Assembly: GCA_026713205.1 (NCBI GenBank)
Contig: JAPOOY010000043.1
Span: 1 to 11,238 of the forward strand
Reading direction: 5' to 3'
DNA: 11,238 nucleotides
DNA from: Bdellovibrionales bacterium
GTDB taxonomy: Bacteria; Bdellovibrionota; Bdellovibrionia; Bdellovibrionales; UBA1609
In this document: positions 258 through 9,974 of the stretch, piece after piece
How positions within the stretch are numbered: position 1 is the first letter of the stretch
Layout: every line of letters starts with the position of its first letter
Made by a program: the position numbers and the translations under genes
The notes under the pieces: generated by a model
What the model saw: the letters and a program-made list of their open reading frames with translations, nothing else
What the model was told of the DNA's origin: nothing
Database searches by the model: none

Positions 258-1109
258 TTAGGCTGTTTTTTTGGATTGTCGGATTTTTGGCAGTTCAAAA
301 TAAAACAGAGTCCCCTGTCCTTCTTCAGAAGATAAGAGGTCCATAACACCTTGATGTTTTTTTATAATGGCATAGGCGATAGCCAATCCAAGACCGGTGT
401 TTTTAAAGAATCCTCCGGTTTTAGTTTGTTTTTTGTAGAAGGCTTCAAAAAGCCTCTTTTTTTCTTCCGGCGGCACACCTGTTCCTTCATCCTTTACGGA
501 TAATCTAAGAGAGCCTGAAGGGGTGACATGGGAGGAGATGATAATAACAGAGTTATTGGGGGAATGATTGAATGCATTGGAGATTAAATTATTCAGGACT
601 TGTTTAATCCATAGAGAATCCATAAACACTTCCGTATCCTCATTTAAGTTTTCTATTTTCCACTGTATCCCTTTTTCACGGGAGGCCAATTCAAAGGGTT
701 TTATGGATTGCTCTATGATATCCCCCCAAAATTCCCATTCAAATCTCATTAAATCCCCTTTTTCCTGTAGGAGACGCAGGTCCAGGGTGTTACTGATAAA
801 AAACATCATTCTATTGATTTCCTGATCCATTAAATGAAGCAATTCCTGTTTATCTTGAGGTGAAGTCTGGTTTTTCTTAATTAAATCCAAAGCCAGTTTT
901 AGTGAACTGATGGGAGTTTTCAGCTCATGGCTGAATAAACTGAGGGGATCCATGAATATTTTTTTACCCATAATCACCCTTTCGGATGGCTGTCCTGATT
1001 GTTTGAGTTTTTTTGTTTTATTGCTATATGGTTTCGGTTCATTTAAGATAGTCATTAAGACTGTTAAAAAAACCGGAAAATTTTCAAAAAAATGTTTAAC
1101 CCCTTTCAA
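258..1109 (-). CDS. sensor-less histidine kinase (HisKA + HATPase_c)
   Basis: This is the transmitter part of a two-component histidine kinase, which autophosphorylates a histidine and passes the phosphate to a response regulator. The H-box has the form SHELKTP, with the phospho-acceptor at His61. The N-box QVLNNLISNAFNHS is at 170-183, the G1 box DEGTG at 207-211 and the G2 region NTGLGLA at 237-243. It ends with the usual G-x-LFYFELP strand. There is no HAMP, PAS or clear paired membrane segments. The longest frame starts at TTG 1109 and would overlap the divergent radical SAM start by 18 bp. ATG 971 (residue 47), preceded by AAGGGT at a good distance, is the more likely start and gives about 237 residues. 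ATG 1055 is an alternative. No response regulator is in the window, so its partner is unknown. A soluble kinase, or a fragment of a once longer one, are both possible. Confidence 0.85.
   Translation of the reverse strand: MKGVKHFFENFPVFLTVLMTILNEPKPYSNKTKKLKQSGQPSERVIMGKKIFMDPLSLFSHELKTPISSLKLALDLIKKNQTSPQDKQELLHLMDQEINRMMFFISNTLDLRLLQEKGDLMRFEWEFWGDIIEQSIKPFELASREKGIQWKIENLNEDTEVFMDSLWIKQVLNNLISNAFNHSPNNSVIIISSHVTPSGSLRLSVKDEGTGVPPEEKKRLFEAFYKKQTKTGGFFKNTGLGLAIAYAIIKKHQGVMDLLSSEEGQGTLFYFELPKIRQSKKTA
1021..1049 (+). promoter_or_regulatory. candidate promoter of the first radical SAM gene
   Basis: TTGCTA (1021-1026) and TAAGAT (1044-1049) are separated by exactly 17 nt, each matching the sigma-70 consensus at four of six positions. 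Transcription would begin near 1056, leaving about 36 nt of leader before ATG 1092. The site lies inside the extended N-terminal frame of the divergent kinase, which favours the shorter kinase start at 971. AT-rich DNA produces such matches by chance. Confidence 0.3.
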
Positions 1110-2369
1110 TCAAATAAGAACCCTTCTTCCTCTCCTACTTTCTGCATCCTTCCCTGGCTTCATTTGGCCACCCGCACCTACGGGGCTGTGACTCCCTGTT
1201 GTGTGGGGGAGCCTTTGGCGGAAAATCTCAATCAGACCACTTTTTCTGAAGCCTGGAACGCGCCCTCTATCAGGACATTGAGGAAAAAAATGCTGAAGGG
1301 GCAGACCTCTCCCCTTTGTCAGAAATGTTACGAAGAGGAAGCGGCCGGAGTGGCCTCTCACAGAGTGCGCGCCAATGACTATTGGAAAGACTTTTACTCT
1401 TTTGATGAAATGATTGGAAATACAAACTCCAGAGGCTTTTTTAAAGGAAAGTATATTTATCTGGATTTGCGCCTGGGCAATAAGTGTAATTTAGAGTGCA
1501 ATATGTGCAGCCCTCAGGAAACAGTGCGCTGGGAATCCTTAGCCGGAAAAATTTTTGAATTTGCGAAAACAGATTTACTGAAAGATTACATAACGAAGCA
1601 AATATCTCTCATGAAGAACTCCCCTTCCAAAAATTGGCATGAAAGAGATGAGGTGATTCAGGATATACATAATCATTTACCCCATTTAAGAAGAGTGACC
1701 ATTGCCGGAGGAGAGCCTCTTTTAATCAAAGAGCATCATAAGTTTTTGGAAGAGTGTATTAACCGTGGAGAGGCTCACCATATATCTCTCCATTATCATA
1801 CAAACGGGACGGCGTTGGATTCTCAATTGTTTGAAAAGTGGAAGCACTTTGAATCTGTTTTGGTGTTTATCAGTCTGGATGATTTGAAAGATCGAAACCG
1901 TTATATTCGCTGGCCCACATCCTGGAAACTGATGGAGAGAAATTTAGATTTCATTGATAGAGAATCTCCCGCCAATGTTCACCCCATGATTTTATGTACC
2001 ATACAGTTGAAAAATATTTTTTATTTTCCTGAGTTTCTTGAATGGTTTTCAGAAAAGAAATTTAAAAAAATTCATGCATGTTATGATTCTGTTGTCCACA
2101 CAGAGCTTGTGATACAGCCTTATTTTCTTTCCTGTCAGGTATTACCCCCTCCTGTTAAAAGGCTTGTTACGGATAAATTTGAGAAAATGTATCAAAAATA
2201 TGGGAAAAAATCAGAGAGATTTAAAACTTTAGTGAATTTTATGAATCTTAAAGATAAAAGTGATATGCTCTATGTTTTTAAGGATTATGTACAGGCCTTG
2301 GATCGGATTAGGAAAACAGACTTTTCCAAAGTCTTTCCTGAATTATCGGAATTATTAGAGGAGGCATAA
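1092..2369 (+). CDS. radical SAM protein with N-terminal twitch-like cysteine cluster (paralogue 1)
   Basis: A radical SAM enzyme of 425 residues. The CxxxCxxC motif (Cys132, 136, 139), which binds the [4Fe-4S] cluster that cleaves S-adenosylmethionine, sits in the context LGNKCNLECNMC, and the GGEP motif is at 206-209. Before the barrel is a region with five cysteines: FC-x-x-PW (Cys18), CC (36-37) and C-x-x-C (76 and 79), with W-x(7)-R and ML-x-G spacers. This matches the pattern of 'twitch domain-containing radical SAM proteins', where an auxiliary Fe-S cluster precedes the barrel. Further shared elements are NWHE (181-184), TNGT (237-240) and YIR-x-P (271-275). ATG 1092 is the only start that keeps the FC-x-x-PW element. 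The C-terminus FPELSELLEEA matches the ending of both neighbours. The substrate is unknown; peptide or carbohydrate modification is possible. Confidence 0.9.
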   Translation: MFNPFQSNKNPSSSPTFCILPWLHLATRTYGAVTPCCVGEPLAENLNQTTFSEAWNAPSIRTLRKKMLKGQTSPLCQKCYEEEAAGVASHRVRANDYWKDFYSFDEMIGNTNSRGFFKGKYIYLDLRLGNKCNLECNMCSPQETVRWESLAGKIFEFAKTDLLKDYITKQISLMKNSPSKNWHERDEVIQDIHNHLPHLRRVTIAGGEPLLIKEHHKFLEECINRGEAHHISLHYHTNGTALDSQLFEKWKHFESVLVFISLDDLKDRNRYIRWPTSWKLMERNLDFIDRESPANVHPMILCTIQLKNIFYFPEFLEWFSEKKFKKIHACYDSVVHTELVIQPYFLSCQVLPPPVKRLVTDKFEKMYQKYGKKSERFKTLVNFMNLKDKSDMLYVFKDYVQALDRIRKTDFSKVFPELSELLEEA

Positions 2370-2439
2370 GTGCATTTCAGGTTATCTTAACAATAATATA
2401 TGGTTCTTTTTAAGTTTAAGATCATGAAATTTCAAACAC

Positions 2440-2491
2440 GATCGGTATAAATACTGAGAACGCACGGGAATAAAGAGTATTTATACCGATC
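2440..2491. repeat. perfect 16-bp inverted repeat with 20-nt spacer
   Basis: GATCGGTATAAATACT (2440-2455) is exactly complementary to 2476-2491, with a 20-nt loop between. It lies about 70 bp after the stop codon of the first radical SAM gene. As RNA it would form a strong, mostly AU stem with two GC-rich ends. There is no run of T directly after it, so it is not a standard intrinsic terminator. Its right arm abuts an ATCCGGTTTG element. Confidence 0.8.
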
Positions 2492-2607
2492 CGGTTTGGA
2501 TTTTACGGTTTTCCGCTAACATAAGGTTAGCTCTTCATTAAGAGAAGAGAGGGTGTAATCTTTCTTTCGTCTGAAAAATCTCAAAATTCAAACCGGATCA
2601 GTAGAAG

Positions 2608-2625
2608 TATCAAACCGGATTGATA
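2608..2625. promoter_or_regulatory. 18-bp operator-like palindrome TATCAA-A-CCGG-A-TTGATA
   Basis: TATCAAACCGGATTGATA reads the same on both strands except at one symmetrical pair (A2614/A2619). It is centred on CCGG and ends 8 bp before the -35 hexamer of the second radical SAM gene. A second CAAACCGGAT starts 22 bp upstream (2589), about two helical turns away, so both would present the same DNA face. This arrangement suits a dimeric transcription factor. The regulator is unknown. It resembles but does not match the IHF consensus. Confidence 0.5.
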
Positions 2626-2633
2626 TATTTGTG

Positions 2634-2662
2634 TTGTGATATGGCGTAAGGTTGTTTAAAAT
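2634..2662 (+). promoter_or_regulatory. candidate promoter of the second and third radical SAM genes
   Basis: TTGTGA (2634-2639), a 17-nt spacer and TAAAAT (2657-2662) match the sigma-70 consensus at four and five of six positions. The start would be near 2669, about 20 nt before ATG 2689, with AAAAGG as a weak ribosome binding site. The palindrome 2608-2625 sits directly upstream. The 40-bp gap after the second gene suggests both radical SAM genes are read from here. Confidence 0.45.
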
Positions 2663-2688
2663 AGATAATATAAAAAGGTTTAGAACAG

Positions 2689-4044
2689 ATGCCTGATCCT
2701 ACTTTAGACTGTGAATCAAATCAAACCGCAGAGGTTCCTTCTTTTTCTCCCACTTTTTGTGTTTATCCCTGGATGGAGTTTATTGTGGGGCCTACAGCAC
2801 ACATGAAGTTATGCTGTATAGCTCAAGGAGCTTTAAAAACGGAATCCGGTAAATCTTACACTGCGGAAAAGCATTCCATGGAGGCTGTGTGGAATAGTTA
2901 CGGTATGAGAGAGGTGAGAAAAAAAATGCTCTCAGGGAAAAGCATCAAGGATTGTGCTCATTGTTACTATCAGGAATCCCTGGGGCGCACTTCTTATCGG
3001 CAAACTTTTAATCGTGAGTGGCTGACGGGGCCTTTTGGTAAAGAAATCATACGGCGGGTTAAAGCCAGTCAGGAAAATGATGGAAAAGTTGACTCTCCAC
3101 CTTTATATCTGGATATTCGTCCCGGAAATCTGTGTAATTTGAAATGTCGTATGTGCAATCCCGGGAATAGTTCAAAAATTTATCAGGAACAAAAAGAGCT
3201 TCTGAATGAAAAAAGAGAATTATTTTCTCCGTTGATTGAGACGGCTTATTTTAATTCAGATAAGGAAGCTTTTCATAATTGGCATGAAGATTCCCGGATA
3301 TGGGAAGAGATTTATTCCTGGCTTCCGGGAGTTAAAAAGCTTTATTTTACAGGAGGTGAGCCAACACTGATCCAACGCAATTGGGATTTATTGAATCATG
3401 TGAAAAAAAATAATTGGTCAAAAAATATTTATTTACATTTTAATATAAACTGCACTCATGTTCCGGATAAGTTGCTGGATACTTTTGAGGATTTTCAGGG
3501 AGTGTGTCTTAATTTAAGCATTGATGGTTATGGAAAGGTTCAGGAGTATATTCGTTATCCTTCAAAATGGAGAGTCATTGAGAAGAATATTAGAAAAGTG
3601 ATGAAACATAAAAATGAGAGGGTATCTGTTTATTTTTCACCTGTGGTTCAAGTGTATAATATTTTAAATTTAACAAAACTTCTTAAATGGGTTGATGGTT
3701 TACAAAAGGAGTTTGAAACGACAATTCGTCATGCTCTCATTTTTTGTACAGGGCCTCATTTTTTGGATATTGCCGTTTTGCCTCAGAATGTGAGGGTTCA
3801 GGCTTTAGATCAAATTCAGGATTATCTGGATAATTATCAGGGGAATGATTCTTTTTTACGGGAATGCTTGGAATCTATACAGCTTATCTTAAGAACAAAA
3901 TTTAAAAACTCCAAAAAGAATTTACGGCAGCTTTTTCAATATACCCATATTCTTGATGAAAAGCGTGGGGAGAATTTTCAAATGGCACTGCCGGAGCTCA
4001 GTCAGTTCCTCAATGAAGAGGGGAGTTGGAAGAGCAAAGAATAA
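2689..4044 (+). CDS. radical SAM protein with N-terminal twitch-like cysteine cluster (paralogue 2)
   Basis: The longest of the three paralogues (451 residues). Its N-terminal cysteine pattern repeats that of the first: FC-x-x-PW (Cys24), CC (42-43) and C-x-x-CY (89 and 92). The radical SAM CxxxCxxC is at Cys149, 153 and 156 in GNLCNLKCRMC, with GGEP at 222-225. NWHE (197-200), YIRYPSKW and the ending LPELSQFL are shared with the others. The N-terminal extension before Cys24 is about 6-15 residues longer than in its neighbours, and a 12-residue tail follows the PEL motif. At position 255 of the 'N-x-T' strand a Cys (FNINCT) replaces the residue found in paralogues 1 and 3. Its own promoter and operator-like palindrome precede it. 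The family is uncharacterised and the substrate unknown. Confidence 0.9.
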   Translation: MPDPTLDCESNQTAEVPSFSPTFCVYPWMEFIVGPTAHMKLCCIAQGALKTESGKSYTAEKHSMEAVWNSYGMREVRKKMLSGKSIKDCAHCYYQESLGRTSYRQTFNREWLTGPFGKEIIRRVKASQENDGKVDSPPLYLDIRPGNLCNLKCRMCNPGNSSKIYQEQKELLNEKRELFSPLIETAYFNSDKEAFHNWHEDSRIWEEIYSWLPGVKKLYFTGGEPTLIQRNWDLLNHVKKNNWSKNIYLHFNINCTHVPDKLLDTFEDFQGVCLNLSIDGYGKVQEYIRYPSKWRVIEKNIRKVMKHKNERVSVYFSPVVQVYNILNLTKLLKWVDGLQKEFETTIRHALIFCTGPHFLDIAVLPQNVRVQALDQIQDYLDNYQGNDSFLRECLESIQLILRTKFKNSKKNLRQLFQYTHILDEKRGENFQMALPELSQFLNEEGSWKSKE

Positions 4045-4084
4045 ACCCTTGTTTTCTAAATTATCAGAGTTATTGGGGGCATGA

Positions 4085-5377
4085 GTGAAGCCTAATCTAA
4101 AGACTTTTTGTCCCTTGCCTTGGATACATCTCAGCGCCCGATCAGATGGCAGTGGGCGGTTATGTTGTAAGGCTCATGAGTTTCCCCTTAAAAATAATCA
4201 GGGAGAAGTGGTTTTTTGGCAGAATTCTGATAATGTTCACTCTTATTTCAATTCAGAAGAATACAAAAAAATCCGTCTTCAGATGCTGAGAGGAAAACAG
4301 CCTTCCCATTGTGTTTCCTGCTTTGAGCAGGAAAGTCATGGAGGGCATAGCCAAAGACAGGCCGCTTTGAATGAGTATGGAACACATAAGCGGATTATTG
4401 ATTCTCTCATAAGGAGCACCAATTCAGATGGATCCATAGATCATCCAAAGCATTTATATCTGGATATGACCTTGGGCAATAAATGCAATTTAAAATGTCG
4501 CATGTGTCATCCGTGGAGTTCTTATATTATAGGGCGGGATTGGAAAAAGATGGGAAAGGAATTTAATGAGGAAGAGACTAAAAAAATACTACAGAACGAA
4601 TGGTATGCTTCTCCGGATTTTTTTCAGTTTGTTCGTTCCGCCTTACCCTTTGTGGAAGAGATAAATACCACAGGTGGCGAACCGTTTTTAATAAAAGAGC
4701 ATTTTTCCATATTAAAAATGATTATAGAGGAAGGTCATTCAGATCATATATCACTGAGATATAATACAAATTACACTGTTATTCCGGATCAAATGGTAAA
4801 GCTTTGGAAATCTTTCAAAAAAGTAACTGTTAATTGTTCAGTGGAAGCTTGTGGAGAATTGAATGATTATATTCGTTACCCATCAAAATGGAATCAATTG
4901 GAAAAAAATATGTATGCTTTGGATGAGTTGGCCTTTCAAAACCCTCACATTAATATACTCATTCACACCACACTTCAGGCCTATAATGTATTAAGGATTC
5001 CTGAATTTTTAGATTGGTTGAGACAAGCAGATTTTAAAGCTGTTTTTCGGTTTCCCGGTCTTGATCTGGTTCAGTCTCCGGAATGGCTGCATCCCGGGAT
5101 ATATCCTCAAAACTTGAGAAGTGAAATTGCTGATAAGATTTTAGAAAGTGTGGATCATCATGAACCTTTCTTTTTAAATTATAATGAAGGGCCTTATCGT
5201 GAACATTCTCGTGAAAGAATTCAAATACTCAGAGATTTTTCTGAAATGATTCGGACGGATTCCAGTCAGGAACGGTATTTTGAATCCTTTATTAAGGAAA
5301 CCAAAGCGCACGATACCTTGAGAAGGCAGTCCGTTACATATGTTCTTCCTGAGTTAAAACCGTTTTTCGTCGATTAG
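4085..5377 (+). CDS. radical SAM protein with N-terminal twitch-like cysteine cluster (paralogue 3)
   Basis: Third paralogue, 430 residues. It starts at GTG 4085: a TGA (4082-4084) directly before it in frame excludes an earlier start, and GGGGG at 4075-4079 lies 5 nt upstream. Cysteines are at 9, 27-28, 76 and 79 in the N-terminal cluster, and 134, 138 and 141 in the radical SAM motif (LGNKCNLKCRMC), with GGEP at 197-200. YIRYPSKW and the terminal VLPEL motif are kept, but the NWHE element is reduced to an EWY segment. It is 40 bp after paralogue 2 and probably co-transcribed with it. It stops at TAG 5375-5377 inside the 3' end of the convergent MerR gene (24-bp overlap). Its closeness to the other paralogues to the last residue shows that TAG is read as stop here. 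Confidence 0.9.
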   Translation: MKPNLKTFCPLPWIHLSARSDGSGRLCCKAHEFPLKNNQGEVVFWQNSDNVHSYFNSEEYKKIRLQMLRGKQPSHCVSCFEQESHGGHSQRQAALNEYGTHKRIIDSLIRSTNSDGSIDHPKHLYLDMTLGNKCNLKCRMCHPWSSYIIGRDWKKMGKEFNEEETKKILQNEWYASPDFFQFVRSALPFVEEINTTGGEPFLIKEHFSILKMIIEEGHSDHISLRYNTNYTVIPDQMVKLWKSFKKVTVNCSVEACGELNDYIRYPSKWNQLEKNMYALDELAFQNPHINILIHTTLQAYNVLRIPEFLDWLRQADFKAVFRFPGLDLVQSPEWLHPGIYPQNLRSEIADKILESVDHHEPFFLNYNEGPYREHSRERIQILRDFSEMIRTDSSQERYFESFIKETKAHDTLRRQSVTYVLPELKPFFVD

Positions 5378-5791
5378 ATTTGCTTCGCTTTGAACAGATT
5401 TTTTAATTTCATTAATTTCTTCAATAAGGTCTTTCAGTTTTTGTGCCGCTTCAGAGGTTTGCTTTTTTTGAGGAGGTTGAGACTTCTTGTGGTTTAATTC
5501 GTAATAATACTTTGAAAGATGTTTTCTTACTCCTTTAACGGATAGATTATATTGATAAAGAAGGCTTTTAATTAAAATTAAAAGCTCCATGTCTTTTTTA
5601 AAGTACAGCCTTTGGTTGTTGGTAAACTTTCGTGGTTTTAAAAGCGAAAATTCCTCTTCCCAGTAACGGAGAATATGAGGTTTTATTCCCAAAAGCTTGG
5701 CGGCTTCGCCAATCTTAAAATTCATTTTATCAGGCAAGAGGGCAAACTCAGCCTGCACTTCCTCTAGCAAGCGAGAGTCGGAAAGCATCAT
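5354..5791 (-). CDS. MerR-family transcriptional regulator
   Basis: A 145-residue DNA-binding protein. Residues 24-91 form a MerR-type winged helix: FKIGEAAKLLGIKPHILRYW, the wing with RLYF-x-x-DME, and a helix ending in GVRKHL. The tail (about 112-137) is charged and probably helical, suited to dimerisation. No cysteine or other effector-binding residues are visible, so it differs from metal-sensing MerR. A MerR-like gene directly after ihfA is common in proteobacteria, where its role is poorly defined. ATG 5791 overlaps the ihfA stop (ATGA). The adjacent ATG 5788 has better spacing (6 nt) to GAGG, so it may be the true start. Translation is coupled to ihfA either way. The 3' end overlaps the convergent radical SAM gene by 24 bp. 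Confidence 0.85.
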   Translation of the reverse strand: MMLSDSRLLEEVQAEFALLPDKMNFKIGEAAKLLGIKPHILRYWEEEFSLLKPRKFTNNQRLYFKKDMELLILIKSLLYQYNLSVKGVRKHLSKYYYELNHKKSQPPQKKQTSEAAQKLKDLIEEINEIKKSVQSEANLIDEKRF

Positions 5792-6087
5792 AAGCCTCTT
5801 TTAAATTTTGTTTTCATACTCAAGCTGGGACGAAAGGTGAGAACTCTCCGTGGTTTAATGATCAGAGATTCCCCTGTTTGGGGATTACGCCCCTTCCTTT
5901 TTTTTTTATCTCTCAGGACAAATTTTCCAAAGCCGGAAATTCTGACACCTTGTCCGTTTTGTAGTTTATCCTGTATAGTAAAAAAAATATCATTGACCAA
6001 TACCTTGCTGAATTGTTTTGTATAACCGATTTTGTTGTAAAGAATTTCAGTTAAATCAGATTTTGTTATTGTCTTTTTTGATGTCAC
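5788..6087 (-). CDS. ihfA: integration host factor alpha subunit
   Basis: A 99-residue HU/IHF-family protein that, with IhfB, binds and sharply bends DNA in replication, recombination and transcription. The beta-arm tip GRNPQTGE (67-74) carries the DNA-intercalating proline (Pro69), and ISGFGKF (50-56) and RRVLTFRPS (80-88) are family signatures. The pheT-ihfA gene order and 99-residue length favour IHF-alpha over HU. It begins at GTG 6087, preceded by a perfect GGAGG six bases upstream (6098-6094), so this start is well supported. The tail KFKRGL is basic. The stop TGA overlaps the start of the MerR gene. Confidence 0.9.
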   Translation of the reverse strand: MTSKKTITKSDLTEILYNKIGYTKQFSKVLVNDIFFTIQDKLQNGQGVRISGFGKFVLRDKKKRKGRNPQTGESLIIKPRRVLTFRPSLSMKTKFKRGL

Positions 6088-6317: not shown

Positions 6318-8459
6318 TTATTTCAGCCTTATGGACGGGAAATGACGGGTGATATGTTGGATGACCTTGTTTTGAATGGCTTCCAATTCCTTATCTGTCC
6401 AGGGCCTTTCGTCCGGTGTGAGGAACATTCTAAAGGATACAGACCTTTGTCCTTCCTGCTCATAAATATCAAAAACAGTCACTTCCTGTCCTGTTTTTCC
6501 CAGAGCTTTACGAATGGATTGCTGTACCTCTCCCGCCGGAATGGAGGGAGGAATGACAAAACAAAGATCTCTTTCCACAGGGGATAGCTCAGAGAAGGGC
6601 TTGAATTTCACGGGGCTTTTAGAGCATTTCCAAAGCTCCTCTCCATTAAATTCTCCAAAAGCCATAGGGACAGACATCTTGTGTTTTAAGGCAAATGAAG
6701 GATGAATGGAGCCTATAAGCCCCAGGCGGCGGCCCTGTACCTGAAGAAAAAGTGTTTGGCTCGGATGAAAAAAAGAGGGAGGATCAGAAAGAGTCTCCCA
6801 TGTCCATCCTTTCCAGCGAAAGGATTTTAATAAAAACTCCATAGCGGATTTTAAATGAAATACATTGGGAATGGCGGCTGGAGATCGGAAATTTAAAGGT
6901 TGACCCCAACAGGCCAGACTGAAGTGTGGGATTTCTTTATAGGACTTTCCCTCTTTGTAGAAAACAGGAGCTATTTCAAATAAACGCCCCTCTTTATTAT
7001 TGTTTCTTACATTGCCTGCGACGGCTTTAAATACATCGGGAAGCAAAAGGGGTTTCATAAGAGACAGGCGGGAGCTAATGGGATTGGAAACTGAAAAAGT
7101 CTCTTCAAAAAACAGCCCTGTTTTTGAAAATTTTAGTTGGTCTTTCATAAAATCCGCATAAAAATTTGGATCGGAAAAACTGTAGTTAATCATCTGGCGC
7201 CAGCCATGACTTTTCAGCTTCTGGGAAAATGTCATTTCCCTGGAAAAGGTTGAACTTAAATTTTCTCCTATGGACTTCATTGGACGAGCCGGAGTTGAAG
7301 GAATATGCTCATAACCTTTCAAGCGAGCCAGTTCCTCCATCAGATCTTCTTTAATGGACAAATCCACACGGAAGGAGGGAGGTGTGACTTTGAATTGAAG
7401 TGCGCTGGTTGTGTTTTCGCGGGATTGAGAGGTTTTCGGGAGATTTTTTTCTTCTGAATTTTGAGAGGACTTAAGGGAGGAAATTTCACATTTCAAATGT
7501 GTCAAATAGCTTTTAAATTCTTCAGAATTTATTTCCATACCCAAACGGCTTTTTATTTCAGAAAGGGAAATGGAAATGTGTTTTGGTTTATAGGGTTGAG
7601 GGTACTTATCACAGGGCTTGGAGTTGATTTTTCCTCCAGTCAGTTTTTGAATCATAAGACAGGCTTTATTCATCGCCGATAAAACACCTTCAGGGTCTGT
7701 GCCACGGGAGAAACGATAGGAGGAATCCGTTTGCAATCCAAAACGGCGAGCTGTATGGCGCACGGATTCAGGACGAAAACAGGCCGATTCCACAAAAATA
7801 TTTATTGTTTCATTGGAAATGGCCGAATCCCTTCCTCCTATGACACCCGCTAAAGCCAGTACTCCTTTTTTATCCCGAATGGTGAGTTCCTCTCCTGTTA
7901 AAGTAAGTTCTTTATCCTCCAGGGAGATGAACTTTTCCCCTTTTTTGGAAGAATCCACAGAAATGGAAGAGATTTGATCTCTGTCAAAAGCATGGAGGGG
8001 CTGTCCCACATCCATTAAAATAAAGTTGGTTATATCCACAATGTTGTTTATGGATTTTAACCCCAGTCTTTCCAGACATCTTTGTAAAGGAAGAGGGGAG
8101 GGAGCCACAGTGACTTCCTCAATAAGCTGACCGCAGTAACGGGGGCAGGCTTTGGAGTCTTTTATTTCCAATGGAAGGGGTTTGTTTTTACGGAGTTCCT
8201 TATCACTTAAAGAGGTTTTCTTTTTTGTTACAGGAGAGTTTTCCTTTTTGGAGGATTTTTGTTTTTGTGTCTCATTTGAAGAGTAAATCTGTTGTTCTTC
8301 CTGTTTCCATCTCTCTATAAGAGAGGTGAAGTTTTGTTTTATTTCCGGAGTTCGCAAAGGCCGTTTAAAAAGAGCGCTTATTTCCCGAGCAAGCCCCAAG
8401 TGGCTTAAACAGTCCGCTCGGTTAGGGGTCACATTAACATCTATTAAAATATCACTCAT
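6318..8459 (-). CDS. pheT: phenylalanyl-tRNA synthetase beta subunit, C-terminal 713 residues (B1 second half to B8)
   Basis: The main body of PheT, which forms an alpha2-beta2 enzyme with PheS charging tRNA-Phe. It opens with the normal PheT strand DILIDVNVTPNRADCLS (residues 3-19). The B3/B4 editing domain follows (about 104-280; HAFD at 156-159 and FVESA at 222-226, positions where editing residues lie). Next are the B5 domain (about 294-390), the B6/B7 synthetase-like region (about 400-610, NVRNNN and RLFEIAPVF) and the C-terminal anticodon-binding ferredoxin-fold domain (about 620-713). Two low-complexity K/S/E-rich inserts, about 45-92 and 329-354, make it longer than usual. The ATG directly follows the TAG of the upstream part, in the same frame. 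GGAAG four bases before the ATG could support reinitiation. Confidence 0.9.
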   Translation of the reverse strand: MSDILIDVNVTPNRADCLSHLGLAREISALFKRPLRTPEIKQNFTSLIERWKQEEQQIYSSNETQKQKSSKKENSPVTKKKTSLSDKELRKNKPLPLEIKDSKACPRYCGQLIEEVTVAPSPLPLQRCLERLGLKSINNIVDITNFILMDVGQPLHAFDRDQISSISVDSSKKGEKFISLEDKELTLTGEELTIRDKKGVLALAGVIGGRDSAISNETINIFVESACFRPESVRHTARRFGLQTDSSYRFSRGTDPEGVLSAMNKACLMIQKLTGGKINSKPCDKYPQPYKPKHISISLSEIKSRLGMEINSEEFKSYLTHLKCEISSLKSSQNSEEKNLPKTSQSRENTTSALQFKVTPPSFRVDLSIKEDLMEELARLKGYEHIPSTPARPMKSIGENLSSTFSREMTFSQKLKSHGWRQMINYSFSDPNFYADFMKDQLKFSKTGLFFEETFSVSNPISSRLSLMKPLLLPDVFKAVAGNVRNNNKEGRLFEIAPVFYKEGKSYKEIPHFSLACWGQPLNFRSPAAIPNVFHLKSAMEFLLKSFRWKGWTWETLSDPPSFFHPSQTLFLQVQGRRLGLIGSIHPSFALKHKMSVPMAFGEFNGEELWKCSKSPVKFKPFSELSPVERDLCFVIPPSIPAGEVQQSIRKALGKTGQEVTVFDIYEQEGQRSVSFRMFLTPDERPWTDKELEAIQNKVIQHITRHFPSIRLK

Positions 8460-8936
8460 CTAGCTTCCGGGGATCAATTGGGAAAAATCCTTCCCCGGTT
8501 TGGTGTCCTGAGGCAAAATAATAATTCCATTTGAGAGATCGGTGGGGCCTGACAGGGCCAGCTCTTTGTGTGAGGCGAGGAAACCATAACTTTCCTCTCC
8601 ACGGATTTTTGCTTTTTTTACAGGGTCTGATCCTCCGGGTAAAATGGCGCCGGGGAGAGCTAAGACCCCCATGTCTCCATCTTTATGGTTTGTTGCTCCA
8701 CAAACGACGGGGATGGTTTCTGTTCCGGTCCAAACCTGACAGAGAGTGAGACGATCGGCATTGGGATGTTTTTTAACGGATTGAATTTTTACCGTGATGA
8801 TTTTTTTGAAATGAAAGTCCTCCATTCCCTCCACTTCCAAACCTTTTTCTGTGAGGGTATTCATGAGGATTTCCGGTTTTTCCAGAAAATCACTTGTATC
8901 TACAAATTCATTCAGCCATTGGATGGAAAATTTCAT
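8460..8936 (-). CDS. pheT: phenylalanyl-tRNA synthetase beta subunit, N-terminal 158 residues (B1 first half and B2 tRNA-binding domain)
   Basis: The N-terminus of PheT up to an in-frame TAG (8462-8460). MKFSIQWLNEFVD is the usual first strand and helix of domain B1. Residues 42-150 are the EMAP-II/OB-fold tRNA-binding domain B2: KKHPNADRLTLC (55-66), VVCGATN (77-83), LPGAILPGG (94-102) and KIRGEESYGFLASHKEL (110-126). The chain ends at IPGS just before the DILIDVNVTPNR strand that normally follows, so the stop cuts the discontinuous B1 domain. It starts 18 bp after pheS with a weak AAGAAG site. Explanations are a true split gene producing a free-standing tRNA-binding protein, readthrough of the TAG, a recent nonsense mutation, or a sequence error. 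Confidence 0.9.
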   Translation of the reverse strand: MKFSIQWLNEFVDTSDFLEKPEILMNTLTEKGLEVEGMEDFHFKKIITVKIQSVKKHPNADRLTLCQVWTGTETIPVVCGATNHKDGDMGVLALPGAILPGGSDPVKKAKIRGEESYGFLASHKELALSGPTDLSNGIIILPQDTKPGKDFSQLIPGS

Positions 8937-8954: not shown

Positions 8955-9974
8955 TTATAGATTTTCAAATTGCCTTAAAAATCGCAGATCGTTTTCAAAA
9001 AGCAAACGGATATTAGGGATGTTATATAAAAGCATTGCAAGCCTCTCAAGACCTAATCCAAAGGCAAAGCCCTCCCAATTTCCTTTCAGACCGGCGGAGG
9101 AAAACACATTGGGGTGAACCAACCCGCATCCTCCCACTTCAATCCATCCGGATTTTTTACATACGGGGCAGCCTCGTTTTTTACAGAACAAACAGGAAAT
9201 ATCATACTCTGCTGAAGGTTCGGTAAAGGGGAAAAAACTGGGACGAAATCTCATTTCCACCGGACCGAAAAGTTTTTTTAGAAAGAAAGACAAAGTTCCC
9301 TTCAAATCTGCAAAAGACACATGTTTATCCACCAAAAGCCCTTCAATCTGATGAAACATGGGAGAGTGGGATATATCACTGTCATGACGAAATACAGGTC
9401 CCGGCGCGAGAACAGCCAAAGGAGGGGAAAAGGATTGCAGAGCGCGGATTTGAACAGGACTGGTATGAGTTCTGAGGACAAAGTCCTCTTCCACATAAAA
9501 GGTATCCTGCAAATCCCGGCTGGGGTGAAAAGGAGGGATATTAAGGGCCGTAAAATTATACCAATCGGATTCCACCAGGGGACCTGTTTGCACGGACCAT
9601 CCCAGTGGAGTGAAGATGTGAATGATTTCATCAATGACTTTTGTAATGGGGTGAAGTGAGCCTGATGGGTGTTCAGGAGGCGGCAGACTTAAATCCAGGA
9701 TGTCCTTTTCCACTTGAGAGGAAAGCTCCTGTTCTTCCAATTCCTGTTTTCTTTGAAGATAGAGGGTTTCCAGGCGCTTTCTTATTTCATTGAGCTTTTG
9801 TCCCCATTTTGGTTTTTCTTCAGCGGGAAGATTCTTCAGTTCCTTTAAGATTAGGGAAAACTCTCCTTTTTTGCCCATGTAAAGAACTTTGGCATCATAC
9901 AGGGATTTGCTGTTTTCGGCTTCCAGAAAGGCCTTCTTCGCCGCATGGAAAATAGTATCCGCTTTCTCTTTCAT
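8955..9974 (-). CDS. pheS: phenylalanyl-tRNA synthetase alpha subunit
   Basis: The catalytic subunit of phenylalanyl-tRNA synthetase, 339 residues, near the usual length. An N-terminal coiled-coil arm (about 1-95) contacts tRNA. The class II core follows, with RTHTSPVQIR (168-177), motif 2 GPVFRHDSDISHSPMFHQIEG (192-212, key Arg196), the SAEYDISC strand and four cysteines (CLFC, CPVC at 261-272) of a typical GC-rich knuckle, then GWIEVGGCGLVHP. Motif 3 GFAFGLGLERLAML (302-315) keeps the alanine equivalent to E. coli Ala294, so the phenylalanine pocket looks normal. It ends in the standard FENDLRFLRQF. It is the first gene of the pheS-pheT-ihfA-merR series. No convincing ribosome binding site precedes ATG 9974. 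Confidence 0.96.
   Translation of the reverse strand: MKEKADTIFHAAKKAFLEAENSKSLYDAKVLYMGKKGEFSLILKELKNLPAEEKPKWGQKLNEIRKRLETLYLQRKQELEEQELSSQVEKDILDLSLPPPEHPSGSLHPITKVIDEIIHIFTPLGWSVQTGPLVESDWYNFTALNIPPFHPSRDLQDTFYVEEDFVLRTHTSPVQIRALQSFSPPLAVLAPGPVFRHDSDISHSPMFHQIEGLLVDKHVSFADLKGTLSFFLKKLFGPVEMRFRPSFFPFTEPSAEYDISCLFCKKRGCPVCKKSGWIEVGGCGLVHPNVFSSAGLKGNWEGFAFGLGLERLAMLLYNIPNIRLLFENDLRFLRQFENL

Follow-up and report, generated by a model that had tools for sequence, protein, structure and literature searches.

A lone in-frame TAG in pheT of a fragmented Bdellovibrionales assembly: very probably an error of the consensus or a nonsense mutation of very recent origin

The window, as we call the whole stretch of DNA analysed here (11,238 nucleotides of one contig of a Bdellovibrionales assembly), carries on its minus strand a pheT gene (6318-8936) that is interrupted by one in-frame TAG after residue 158 (Table 1). 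The original prediction, that pheT is cut by a single in-frame TAG immediately followed by ATG, is confirmed by the sequence and by the frame: the minus-strand letters around the break are ...CCC GGA AGC TAG ATG AGT GAT ATT..., and the frame read from 8936 to 6318 contains one stop in 872 codons. All five PheT domains are present in order and above the Pfam cut-offs, yet spread across two frames. The gene adjoins pheS on the same strand, as expected for a bacterial PheT, and departs from the expected single continuous chain, as the assembly reads, through one in-frame TAG. Ordinary bacterial PheT proteins with solved structures (2rhs_B, 3pco_B, 6p8t_A, 1b70_B) have the same domain order, match the window PheT before as well as after the break and are likewise preceded by pheS; these are single chains, whereas in the window one codon reads TAG. 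The matches of the first piece to solved chains extend to approximately residue 149-153 and those of the second start at residue 154-156 (two alignments per piece). The OB domain lies wholly inside the first piece, and the regions at the break are presumably those named B1 and B2.

Table 1. Features of the pheT locus in the window
Feature	Position	Strand	Remark
In-frame TAG inside pheT	8460..8462	-	tryptophan in the seven nearest relatives
ATG abutting the TAG	8457..8459	-	methionine in 6/7 nearest relatives, isoleucine in the 7th
pheT 5' part, 158 aa	8460..8936	-	OB-fold tRNA_bind domain (Pfam PF01588)
pheT 3' part, 713 aa	6318..8459	-	B3_4, B5, CLM and FDX-ACB domains (Pfam)
GGAAG, weak Shine-Dalgarno (SD)-like stretch 5' of the ATG	8464..8468	-	within Gly-Ser codons
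pheS (alpha subunit), intact, directly upstream of pheT	8955..9974	-	family match
IHF/HU-family DNA-binding protein, intact, downstream of pheT	5788..6087	-	PF00216

A stretch of about 40 residues rich in Lys, Ser and Gln precedes the B3_4 domain of this PheT (minus strand, approximately 8180-8305). The PheT proteins of the ten nearest relatives among the matches listed are likewise long (863-902 aa).

To compare the break with homologs, the 713-residue piece served as query against 5.8 billion proteins, which gave 6332 matches (the best 120 of these 6332 were used), and against 58 related genomes, 57 of which had a match (loci were obtained for 30 matches, the own one included). With the own entries left out, 119 of the best 120 proteins and 29 of the 30 loci formed an alignment of 148 rows, not all of them independent, as a protein and a locus may share one organism; the two window pieces were added to it separately. 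A sense residue occupies the TAG column in all 148 aligned relatives: glycine in 105, tryptophan, serine and lysine in seven each, asparagine in six, glutamate in five, aspartate and alanine in three each, arginine in two, and leucine, glutamine and histidine in one each. The column is thus variable, with 12 different residues. More than 60 upstream residues stand on the same chain in 146 of the 148 relatives, the two others having 34 (P0102) and 32 (L022, whose frame begins at the end of its sequence stretch). Neither a separate OB piece of the 158-residue type nor a clade-wide split of pheT occurs in any of the 148 aligned relatives. Two further sources were uninformative in this respect or remote: the 259- and 601-residue pheT frames of one related genome (G015) are due to a run of N in its assembly, and named GTDB contigs, scanned for close relatives (80 of 137 loci retained, none of them entered in the alignment), yielded distant ones only, at most 36% identical. 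By the names of the relatives in these searches, the source would be an uncultured bacterium close to Bdellovibrionota.

The window PheT stands as a singleton in the protein collection; among the matches listed, the closest other sequence is 83% identical. Tryptophan at the TAG column marks exactly the seven nearest relatives among these matches (P0002 to P0008, 66-83% identical). The two halves are well conserved, as had been claimed: identity to the nearest relative is 86% for the 5' part (136/158) and 85% for the 3' part (598/706), and to the next six relatives 75-83% and 68-76%, respectively, with no sign of decay in the identity of either part. As Trp stands in the nearest seven, followed by Met in six, the older reading is Trp-Met, and the ATG is old as well; the TAG-ATG is thus an old Trp-Met pair in which one codon has changed. 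The gene would then be an ordinary single-chain pheT in which one codon, Trp in the nearest relatives, reads TAG in one assembly.

The comparison bears directly on the proposal, made in the original prediction, of a beta subunit in two pieces, with a free OB-fold protein. Trbp111 and Arc1p are free OB-fold tRNA-binding proteins, and a 199-residue putative tRNA-binding protein (3bu2) matched the first pheT piece; like that piece, they are short chains that carry a tRNA_bind domain. Unlike these proteins, the short chain in the window is owed to one stop codon and is separate in none of the 148 relatives. An evolved two-piece PheT would agree with the OB domain lying wholly in the first piece and has a precedent in the heritable split pheT reported from Altiarchaeales (PMC4975002). 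There, pheT is reported to be encoded in two parts, with the conserved residues retained; the split is common to most of the genomes compared, lies just before B5, separates non-adjacent loci, and is backed by reads and several assemblers (PMC4975002). The window gene resembles that case in having pheT in two pieces with conserved residues, and differs from it in that the split is found in one assembly, lies after the OB domain and before B3_4, consists of a single codon and leaves the pieces adjacent; every feature of the Altiarchaeales-type split that was testable here fails. No extra residues were added at either new end of the two pieces, so that nothing has been gained there; none of the 148 aligned relatives, the closest at 83% identity, has the arrangement; and both the ATG, an old methionine, and the SD-like stretch are old coding residues. 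We therefore regard an evolved two-piece PheT as very improbable and do not uphold this part of the prediction.

The GGAAG before the ATG, which had been suggested to allow reinitiation, is indeed present. It matches the SD core over three bases, as do 41 of 152 sampled first-ATG upstreams, while 55 of the 152 have a match of four or five bases and 56 have none (the tally uses the first ATGs of frames, which are not proven starts). The match is thus weak, and the Gly-Ser codons that hold it are common to all seven nearest relatives, so that the seeming start signal is old coding sequence. The ATG after the TAG is likewise an old residue from inside the chain, and could serve as a start no more than by chance. 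In lacI, translation restarts after an amber codon; the window shares with this system an in-frame ATG soon after the nonsense codon, unlike lacI, however, its restart is only putative and the SD-like match is weak.

Such a restart would matter if the TAG had arisen by a genuine and recent nonsense mutation in the strain sampled, which the cell may survive by restarting at the ATG, with the two pieces associating into a functional beta subunit. This is a possible, if rather unlikely, origin of the stop, second in probability to a consensus error, and it forms part of our preferred explanation. It would fit the ATG directly after the stop with the SD-like GGAAG before it, the position of the break at a residue that varies among relatives, and the preservation of all domains in the two parts. 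It is weakened by the three-base SD match, by the lack of a split in any aligned relative, and by another in-frame stop of this assembly, unrelated to the one in pheT (see below), which points to errors. That the TAG is real and also fixed in the species, with stop-and-restart yielding a PheT of two pieces as a first step of gene fission, seems very improbable to us; if true, it would show a synthetase gene splitting in a single step.

The other biological reading is that TAG is translated, either by a suppressor tRNA or through a changed code. Tryptophan in the near relatives and a variable position tolerant of many residues would suit it. As had been argued from other genes ending in TAG, the use of this codon as a stop speaks against general recoding: among 154 long open frames (250 codons or more and a visible stop; 61-contig sample described below, shadow frames included), 83 end in TAA, 49 in TGA and 22 in TAG. 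Release factor RF1 is present without internal stops (score 447.9 bits, cut-off 423.25), and its loss was therefore rejected. The search for a suppressor tRNA found 18 tRNAs in the assembly, whose completeness is 85%; a full set would be larger, and one could therefore be missing. The tRNA-Trp has the anticodon CCA, and none of the 18 has CUA. With the threshold loosened to E = 1, one more weak match appeared, at which ARAGORN found no tRNA. As the assembly is incomplete, the absence of a CUA tRNA is suggestive only; taken with the intact RF1 and the use of TAG as a stop, it leaves the suppression or readthrough that had been considered without support, and we hold it highly unlikely that TAG stands for an amino acid in this case.

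The same assembly was searched for a second pheT copy, the presence of which would make the window copy a pseudogene. None was found within its 85%, where B3_4 and the 158-residue piece were each matched once. The incompleteness of the assembly leaves some room for an intact pheT elsewhere; against this, the gene lies directly behind an intact pheS, and its 872 codons include a single stop; we consider a pseudogene very improbable.

The assembly comprises 302 contigs and 1.5 Mb (1,506,820 bases). We scanned 61 of its contigs (60 sampled contigs and the window; 350,802 bases, 23% of the assembly) for other interrupted genes. A codon-usage scan for in-frame stops gave 80 same-frame pairs in this sample, and 43 and 56 in two control genomes (G003 and G004, respectively). 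The top 14 pairs per sample were viewed by eye; ten pairs of the own sample were given coordinates, and five pairs were scanned against families. One of the five is an aspartokinase cut in two. Two others are different neighbouring genes above the cut-offs (nusG/ribosomal L11 and nuoB/nuoCD); one pairs an ABC ATPase with a piece whose only match, weak and under the cut-off, is to a membrane protein, and one has no family match. A filtered TBLASTN screen identified one gene with an interior stop in 94 stretches of the own sample (the same aspartokinase), one in 107 stretches of G003, where the match is weak and gapped, and none in 88 stretches of G004. This comparison is made without pheT, as the pheT genes of G003 and G004 lie outside the samples, and its filters were chosen after the unfiltered screens, crowded in all three samples by stops at alignment ends and by shadow frames, had been viewed; the difference between the own sample and the controls means nothing on its own.

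The aspartokinase gene has a lone in-frame TGA (L167:220-222, contig C165) and is cut by the contig start; its pieces match TIGR00656 positions 72-141 and 143-406. In the genome search it is the only match in the own genome, with one TGA inside, and the 21 matches of relatives that ranked above it have no internal stop. Stops occur in lower-ranked matches, namely a second aspartokinase-like match in G041 (one TAA), whose stop, to judge from its open frame of 404 aa, would lie at the end, and seven weak ones (E from 1e-12 to 1e-6). Among 25 relative loci examined, the motif around the TGA was found in 14 with a strict pattern and in 18 with a looser one; neither pattern located it in the other seven, and the residue at the TGA is Gly in all 18. 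The aspartokinase TGA is therefore likely another error of the same assembly. Since the two genes have different stop codons at different residues, one usual suppressor tRNA is no explanation; no common biological cause can be named, and independent changes or errors explain both.

The relatives with a sense residue, together with the second lone stop, make a sequence error or a recent mutation the likeliest explanation of the TAG, in agreement with two of the options listed in the original prediction. We consider it very probable that the stop in pheT is either a consensus error or a nonsense mutation of very recent origin, and not an evolved arrangement. Within this explanation, a consensus error in a fragmented metagenome assembly is probable: the pheT and aspartokinase stops would be independent one-base changes, and that both are errors, and not real mutations, is most likely. 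The small excess of lone stops over the relatives weighs against the error reading: only two clear cases were seen in 351 kb, pheT being the given one. Two nonsense events would correspond to roughly 1e-4 substitutions per base, a figure that carries no weight, its denominator (398,010 coding bases) exceeding the sample because shadow frames are included. The weight lies on two stops in conserved genes, each found once, in one 302-contig assembly. When an essential gene appears cleanly split in a metagenome assembly of many fragments, one wrong codon may thus be the cause, and comparison with near relatives together with a search for other lone stops goes most of the way to settling such cases.

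Two minor observations concern other genes. A gene of the own sample that we take, by its sequence, to be lytic-transglycosylase-like contains a TAA at 2811 and a TGA at 2826, five codons apart (L177:2811-2828, contig C110); it is identical to a G003 protein in 268 of 690 alignment columns, failed the TBLASTN filters and was left out of the counts. In the window itself, the plus strand carries a tandem of three radical SAM proteins at 1092-5377 (425, 451 and 430 aa), one of which has a SPASM match.
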